A stretch of 36,001 bases of DNA from Klenkia terrae (lineage in GTDB: Bacteria; Actinomycetota; Actinomycetes; Mycobacteriales; Geodermatophilaceae): assembly GCF_900491935.1 (NCBI RefSeq), contig NZ_UEXK01000004.1:3565510-3601510 (forward strand), in the 5' to 3' direction. Every line of letters begins with the position of its first letter. Position 1 is the first letter of the stretch. Below the pieces are notes generated by a model. That model was not told the DNA's origin. It was given only the letters and a program-made list of their open reading frames with translations, and did not search any database. Of the stretch, positions 34,712 through 36,001 are shown piece by piece. The position numbers were made by a program, and so were the translations under genes.

Positions 34712-35431
34712 ATGGACCAGCAGCCCGACGCCACCGATGACCCCGGTCCGATCGACGAGCCCGGTCCGATCGACGAGCCCGGCCAGGTCGACGAGCCCGG
34801 CCCCACCGAGTGGCCGACGTCGGTCGGGGTCGGTCCGTGGCCAGGGCCGTGGCCCACGGACCCCCGGTACGACCCGCAGCTGCTGGCCGAGGGCGACCGG
34901 CGCAACGTCGTCGACGGCTACCGGTACTGGACCCTCGAGGCGGTGGTGGCCGACCTGGACCGCAGGCGGCACCCCTTCCACGTGGCGATCGAGAACTTCG
35001 GCCACGACCTGAACATCGGGACGGTGGTGCGCACCGCCAACGCGTTCCTGGCCGCCGAGGTCCACGTGGTCGGCCGCCGCCGCTGGAACCGCCGGGGGGC
35101 CATGGTCACCGACCGCTACCAGCACCTGCGCCACCACCCCGACGTCGCCGGGCTGCTGGACCACGCCCACGCCGAGGGGCTGGCCGTGGTCGCGGTGGAC
35201 AACGGCCCGGGCACCGTCCCGCTGGAGACCGCCGACCTGCCGGCGGCCTGCGTGCTGCTCTTCGGCGAGGAGGGACCCGGCCTCACCCCCGAGGCGCGGG
35301 CCGGCGCGGACCTGACGGTGTCGATCGCCCAGTTCGGGTCCACCCGGTCGCTGAACGCCGGGGTGGCGGCCGGGATCGCGATGCACGCCTGGATCCGGCA
35401 GCACACCAGCCCCACCGGTCACGGCGGCTGA
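34712..35431 (+). CDS. SpoU/TrmH-family RNA 2'-O-methyltransferase
   Basis: A 239-residue SPOUT methyltransferase. Motif 1 is NIGTVVRTANAF (about residue 107), motif 2 LLFGEEGPGLTPEA, and motif 3 AQFGSTRSLNAGVAAGIAMHAW. The RNA target cannot be given. The N-terminal 35 residues are low-complexity Asp/Glu/Pro repeats (18-base units DNA-repeated at 34742-34795). ATG 34712 lies seven bases after a TAGGCT -10-like box, suggesting a leaderless mRNA. The open frame upstream crosses the divergent DUF952 gene and was rejected. Confidence 0.9.
   Translation: MDQQPDATDDPGPIDEPGPIDEPGQVDEPGPTEWPTSVGVGPWPGPWPTDPRYDPQLLAEGDRRNVVDGYRYWTLEAVVADLDRRRHPFHVAIENFGHDLNIGTVVRTANAFLAAEVHVVGRRRWNRRGAMVTDRYQHLRHHPDVAGLLDHAHAEGLAVVAVDNGPGTVPLETADLPAACVLLFGEEGPGLTPEARAGADLTVSIAQFGSTRSLNAGVAAGIAMHAWIRQHTSPTGHGG
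34742..34795 (+). repeat. three tandem 18-bp units in the methyltransferase gene
   Basis: Units of 18 bases (two identical, CCCGGTCCGATCGACGAG, plus one diverged) encode PGPIDE/PGQVDE repeats at the N-terminus of the SpoU protein. Being a multiple of three, copy-number change would keep frame. Confidence 0.85.
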
Positions 35432-35439
35432 CCGCACCC

Positions 35440-35474
35440 CGGCCCGGGCCGTGGCGCCTCCCGCGTCGGGCGCC
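35440..35474 (+). terminator. weak hairpins after the SpoU gene
   Basis: CGGCCCGGGCCG is a 12-bp palindrome at 35440-35451, followed by GGCGCC/GGCGCC (35453-35458, 35469-35474) with a ten-base loop. Either could terminate the SpoU transcript; neither is strong. The region to 35529 contains nothing else clear. Confidence 0.35.
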
Positions 35475-35529
35475 GGTGGTCGGTCAGCATGGCCTGCGTC
35501 CGGGACCCGCCGGGCCGGAGGGAGGTCCC

Positions 35530-35850
35530 GTGAGCAGCTCCGTGGTGCCGCGGCCCGGACCGGCCTGGGACGACGGCTGGCTGCCCGAGTGGCTCACCGC
35601 GGGGGACGCCGTCGCCCCGTCCGACGCCGCCGGGGACCCCGTCCCGGAGGTCCCGGAGGTCGACCCGTCCCCTGCCCGGTCCCCGGGCTCGGTGGGCCGC
35701 CTGGTCGTGGCCACCGGTGCGGTGGTGCTGGTCGTCCTCGCCGCCGTCCTGGCGTCGCTGGGCAGCCCGACGGCCCCGGCACCCGCGTCCGCCGCCGTCC
35801 CCGCCGCGGCGGGCACCGCGGGGACGGTCGGCGGGGCGGGGCCGCCCCCG
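35530..35850 (+). CDS. truncated single-pass membrane protein (partial, chimeric 3' end)
   Basis: The GTG start at 35530 lies behind GGAGG. The readable part encodes a soluble Asp/Pro-rich N-terminus of about 55 residues (starts SSSVVPRPGPAWDDGW), one transmembrane helix (about 57-78, LVVATGAVVLVVLAAVL), and the beginning of a Pro/Ala-rich external part. I do not recognise the family. From about 35850 the sequence changes abruptly to satellite-like DNA, yet the frame stays open to the window end, so any gene call will give a false chimeric protein. The native 3' end is missing. Confidence 0.7.
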
Positions 35851-36001
35851 TTCCTTTTCAACCTCTTGCGTTGCCGACCATTCCCCTCCACTCTAGTCTA
35901 TTCCACTCCATTCCCTTCCATTGCATTCCATACTATTCCATTCCATTCCTTTGCATTCCGTTTCCAATCTATTCGATTCCATTGCATTCCAGTCCAATCC
36001 A
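35851..36001. repeat. ATTCC/CATTC satellite-like array, probable human satellite II/III contamination
   Basis: From about 35879 on, the sequence is a degenerate array of the pentamer ATTCC/CATTC (for example CATTCCATACTATTCCATTC), the form of human satellite II/III. Positions 35851-35878 are transitional, AT-rich and neither clearly host nor satellite. The change of base composition at the junction is abrupt. High-GC actinobacterial DNA would not be expected to carry this. Confidence 0.88.

Follow-up and report, generated by a model that had tools for sequence, protein, structure and literature searches.

The window analysed here, by which we mean the whole stretch of 36,001 nucleotides, corresponds to positions 3565510-3601510 of G000:C4 and is part of a sequence of 4,731,847 bases (a 4.73-Mb scaffold). 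At its right end lies a gene starting with GTG at 35530, located between a gene for a SpoU-family methylase and rlmN. The gene is interrupted, and the letters that follow its native part can be divided as follows:

35530..35847, forward strand: the first 106 codons, native, of a gene encoding a Pro/Ala/Ser/Thr-rich protein (recognised by comparison with relatives), which lacks its 3' part at the gap
35848..35880, forward strand: reverse complement of Tn5ME-A (Nextera mosaic end plus i5-side adapter) with an overlay of bases in ATTCC phase; 22/33 letters match
35881..35917, forward strand: expected span of the i5 index (8 bases) and the P5 oligo (29 bases), mostly satellite letters as judged from the ATTCC-phase fit
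35918..36001, forward strand: satellite-like degenerate ATTCC array past the adapter span, recognised by its lag-5 identity; N (36002) and TATAAGAG follow outside the window

The base immediately to the right of 36001 is N, after which come TATAAGAG, an apparent Nextera mosaic-end stub, and native DNA running into rlmN; the gene on this side encodes Radical SAM and RlmN N-terminal domains. An N precedes the window as well, which makes the window one N-bounded contig of the scaffold. The tail preceding that left-hand N weakly resembles the i5 adapter (21/33). Single-N joins are the notation of some scaffolders for zero or negative gaps. The initial annotation of this DNA, made from the letters of the window, had placed the tail at a contig end. 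It is indeed a contig edge, but the window sits inside the 4,731,847-base sequence and the edge therefore borders a gap within the scaffold instead of being the terminus of the deposited sequence.

The reading frame that begins at 35530 remains open through the foreign letters, past the N and up to the window-equivalent position 36147. It thus comprises 205 codons, the first 106 of which are native, and the earlier statement that the junction falls inside a frame open to the end of the window holds even beyond that end. Comparison of this gene with close relatives, which the initial annotation had recommended, covered four of the eight same-genus genomes; L016 and L017 (other strand), L015 (upstream gene on another contig) and L018 were left out. 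All four (L011-L014) have a complete gene, free of the array, in the interval from the SpoU-family methylase gene to rlmN. The encoded proteins are 285 (L011), 402 (L012), 291 (L013) and 299 (L014) amino acids long according to mechanical frame calls, the length in L012 resulting from a more upstream start. In these proteins a hydrophobic segment precedes a Pro/Ala/Ser/Thr-rich region, and the gene stops just before rlmN. The protein started at 35530 has a hydrophobic segment too, which is probably membrane-spanning. The L011 copy gave no Pfam match, and nothing was found by Rfam at gathering thresholds in 35401-36001. Roughly 385-575 native bases are missing at the gap, as calculated from the spacing of the aligned flanks in the four relatives after subtraction of the 167 bases of artefact that extend from 35848 to about 36014, an estimate that is rough because the gene is divergent. 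In the neighbouring SpoU-family methylase frame, an 18-base tandem repeat (34742-34800; 3.3 copies, 92% matches) encodes an acidic Gly-Pro repeat in the N-terminal part.

At the level of composition, the end of the window differs sharply from the rest. GC content is 0.43 in 35881-36001 vs. 0.69-0.80 across the 1-kb bins of the window, and the minimum for any 100 bases (0.40) is reached at a start of 35889. Tandem Repeats Finder, run on the 36,001-nt window, reported a period-5 array at 35878-36001 with 24.6 copies, the consensus CCATT and 71% matches; its score of 99 is the highest among the 77 rows obtained for the window, the second being 97. Lag-5 identity is 0.71 in the final 84 bases (35918-36001), a value reached by none of 5,000 shuffles, and a single ATTCC phase accounts for 60 of the 72 letters in 35889-35960. 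On the same strand, CATTC occurs six times in the 121 bases of 35881-36001 vs. twice in 1-35847. Repeat detection, GC content and lag-5 identity thus all confirm the degenerate ATTCC/CATTC pentamer tail, alien to a high-GC window, that had been noticed at first.

Could the array be a genuine bacterial simple-sequence repeat within the gene? Pentamer repeats of this kind do turn up in prokaryote assemblies, where some of them may be native. When the genome_contigs collection was scanned (84,980 species with a single genome each, contigs shorter than 3 kb left out), an exact 25-mer of CATTC repeats was found at 21 prokaryote loci. Eleven of these have perfect repeats 27-80 bases long, and no N lies within 300 bases of any of the 21. 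Because CATTC repeats occur at these loci with no N nearby, the pentamer repeat alone is no proof of contamination, and the case for contamination in the window rests on the adapter, the overlay and the gap together. A native repeat is nevertheless close to inconceivable here. The array is degenerate and is not continuous with native DNA, having adapter on its left and N plus an adapter-like stub on its right. It is absent from the corresponding stretch of all four relatives, where the best 40-base ATTCC match on either strand scores 15-17 vs. 36 in the window. In addition, a 15-base ATTCC word (up to two mismatches) matches only one other place in the genome, where an adapter junction borders an N run. 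Three further matches with three mismatches were discarded as being within chance, the reversed control having given eight. Among the other prokaryotes, the perfect CATTC repeats of L123 (64 bases, Planctomycetes chromosome) and L135 (80 bases, Kapaibacterium MAG) are possibly native microsatellites. A 132-base degenerate ATTCC-like array with 80% pentamer identity was seen around 184-208 of L133, a Pseudobdellovibrionaceae MAG contig; some 134 bases separate it from the end of the stretch examined, and it is possibly also a satellite contaminant.

A derivation from CATTC is assumed for human satellites 2 and 3 (Altemose et al. 2014, PMC4022460), and the tail at 35878-36001 has the CATTC-derived pentamer structure. 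The resemblance to human satellite II/III noted at first therefore agrees with the description given in PMC4022460, the human species itself being a likely origin suggested by this likeness in sequence. As regards the subfamilies, the 84 bases past the adapter span were compared with the 14 subfamily 24-mers of Table 1 in the same source (one word per subfamily). The 11 HSat3 words scored 16-20/24 and the three HSat2 words 14-17/24; three of the HSat3 words were reached by no more than 4/500 phase-preserving shuffles, uncorrected for the 14 words. The scores favour an HSat3-like source, somewhat closer to HSat3 than to HSat2. What the tail shares with the human satellites is thus a degenerate CATTC-derived array with HSat3 24-mers matched at up to 20/24, whereas the difference is that only 84 adapter-free bases are available here and none of the 14 tabulated 24-mers is matched exactly.

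The first foreign letters are not plain satellite. Oligo sequences of Tn5ME-A and Tn5ME-B are given in PMC4248319, and the i5-side adapter oligo has its best fit in the entire window at 35848-35880 (22/33), a value equalled by 0/5,000 shuffled tails. The runner-up place elsewhere in the window gave 20/33, so that the match, taken alone, exceeds what chance achieves at best in the window by just a small margin; it gains weight because of its place and the overlay described below. As in Nextera read-through, the insert is followed at once, from 35848 on, by a mosaic end with the i5-side adapter. In the part that follows, five of the eight index letters agree with TACTCCTT, and P5 is almost lost under satellite letters. 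Consequently, the direct junction of bacterial and satellite DNA proposed at first has to be abandoned: adapter read-through lies between the two, interleaved with the satellite, and the end consists of a single N and an adapter-like stub. The foreign tail itself stands, but its start moves from 35851 to 35848, and its first 33 bases are mainly adapter.

Untrimmed adapters are found at other gaps of this genome as well. The Nextera mosaic-end word (up to one mismatch) occurs 19 times vs. 0 for the reversed control, and all eight of the sites inspected are within 158 bases of an N; the P7 flow-cell word occurs eight times, four of them exact, vs. 0 in the control. A 400,000-base sample of the 4,731,847-base sequence contains 17 N runs, of which 12 are single bases, four are ten bases long and one is longer. 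An adapter word lies within 250 bases of 8/17 of them vs. 2/17 random places; nine runs are without an adapter word, and three of the eight positives depend on one two-mismatch word. A search for i5-side junctions yielded 19 sites, 18 of which have an N within 181 bases after the adapter, the remaining one (L100) being without N in the stretch examined. Removal of a duplicate (L116) left 18 distinct junctions in addition to the window. This search recovers low-error junctions only and misses that of the window itself, and badly overlaid junctions elsewhere may be missed too. The fuller junctions have the order native DNA, mosaic end, i5 adapter, index, P5, noise and N, and a run of at least seven A follows P5 at five sites. 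The index TACTCCTT is exact at L098 and is matched in at least six of eight letters at 9/18 of the distinct junctions outside the window. Across loci L030-L037 and L098-L116 of G000:C4, untrimmed Nextera adapters, indices and P5 or P7 oligos are seen next to N runs at many points of the scaffold. It is likely that genes at such adapter-bearing edges of the scaffold have false ends.

The adapter mismatches in the window turned out to follow a rule. In 35848-35880, continuing the array's own ATTCC phase to the left predicts 10 of the 11 letters that disagree with the adapter; with the other four phases the numbers are 6, 3, 0 and 0. All 10 positions at which adapter and satellite agree carry the correct letter, and altogether 32/33 letters are explained by adapter or in-phase satellite, one by neither. 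The binomial chance of 10/11 at one third is 1.3e-4; permuting the wrong letters, however, reaches 10/11 in 189/20,000 trials, for which reason these 33 bases alone provide moderate support. When adapter, index and P5 are considered together (35848-35917, 70 bases), 27/33 mismatches fit the ATTCC phase, as did 0/2,000 permutations. The same test was applied to the 18 other distinct i5-side junctions. At 17 of them there is no overlay, with at most 0.47 of the misfits fitting any phase and permutation equalling this in at least 540/2,000 trials. As the misfits follow the ATTCC phase here and not at 17/18 other junctions, two overlaid templates are the best reading of the junction.

The single positive junction, L103 (the L039 site; G000:C4 about 2039982-2040052), has 19/27 misfits in ATTCC phase, a level reached by 3/2,000 permutations, which suggests the same satellite contaminant at another gap. 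The evidence is weaker than in the window, because the part past P5 is just 24 bases long and its lag-5 identity is not above that of shuffles (267/500). Two other assignments of this site, which is the second ATTCC-like hit in the genome, as a second satellite and then as a plain degraded P5 oligo, were rejected when the overlay test grouped it with the window.

According to another explanation, an ordinary satellite read from a contaminant would have been attached to the contig end, and the adapter likeness would be due to chance. The array is clean over the last 84 bases, and 20/33 letters of 35848-35880 also fit the ATTCC phase, as this explanation would have it. Of the 13 letters there that do not belong to the satellite, however, 12 are those of the adapter; moreover, the adapter lies between native DNA and the array, and the order native DNA, adapter, tail and N recurs at other gaps. 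We therefore consider a chance likeness very improbable. The contaminating read put forward in the initial annotation survives in part: there is a satellite-like contaminant at the edge, the chimeric frame is open and the four relatives lack the array, but the clean direct join is not what the letters spell.

We conclude with high confidence that the tail is a sequencing/assembly artefact in which adapter and satellite are overlaid. The following course of events would account for it. Sequencing of a Nextera fragment, whose short bacterial insert stops at 35847, would have run on into the fragment's own adapter, while signal was added to the same read by a second template: a pentameric ATTCC satellite, most probably human. 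The adapter stretch would then be a base-by-base mixture, the satellite alone remaining after the first template had run out. Left untrimmed, the tail would have become the contig edge, to which scaffolding added the single N and the next contig, starting with its adapter-like stub. The mixing of templates probably took place on the flow cell, in a mixed cluster. In mixed Illumina clusters the signals of two sequences are combined, and the result may resemble one molecule with errors at some positions (PMC3163567); mixed clusters are also among the listed causes of cross-talk between samples (PMC5759201). Two merged templates and a blended signal would be common to the case described in PMC3163567 and to ours, the difference being that the former concerns reads and the latter an assembly.

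Alternatively, the per-base consensus of an assembler or polisher might have interleaved two clean reads, one bacterial-adapter read and one bacterial-satellite chimera. Such mixing would yield identical interleaving, and few reads would be expected to vote at a contig edge. It would also suit the behaviour of P5: adapter letters fall off sharply in the P5 part of the window, other junctions retaining up to 25/29 P5 letters, and an abrupt loss is what the end of one read would produce. Steady fading of the first template is not a full explanation of this loss. On the other hand, consensus mixing requires the chimera to break at or near the adapter-junction base and the software to average reads that disagree, and a similar overlay (19/27) is present at a second, separate junction (L103). 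We regard it as a rather unlikely, yet serious, alternative to a mixed cluster.

In the work of Breitwieser et al. (2019), as referred to in PMC7053099 and PMC7484160, human contamination of bacterial assemblies is reported to create spurious proteins. As in the cases reported there, human-type sequence in a deposited bacterial assembly results in a false protein, but here the foreign letters overlie adapter read-through at a scaffold gap. Contamination of this class is familiar; what sets the present case apart is the base-by-base overlay. A contaminant can apparently enter an assembly with no contig of its own, and screens for whole foreign contigs could miss such cases.

The tail is not bacterial biology; it gives a false end to a real gene, the product of which cannot be trusted past residue 106. 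Since 8/17 sampled gaps carry adapter tails, other genes at the gap edges of this scaffold need to be treated with care. In more general terms, there is perhaps an even chance that mixed clusters can leave base-level fingerprints in assemblies, in the form of adapter-tail errors that spell out a second template. If this is true, scanning the untrimmed adapter tails at the contig edges of public genomes could reveal what shared the flow cell with them, even where no contaminant contig has survived.
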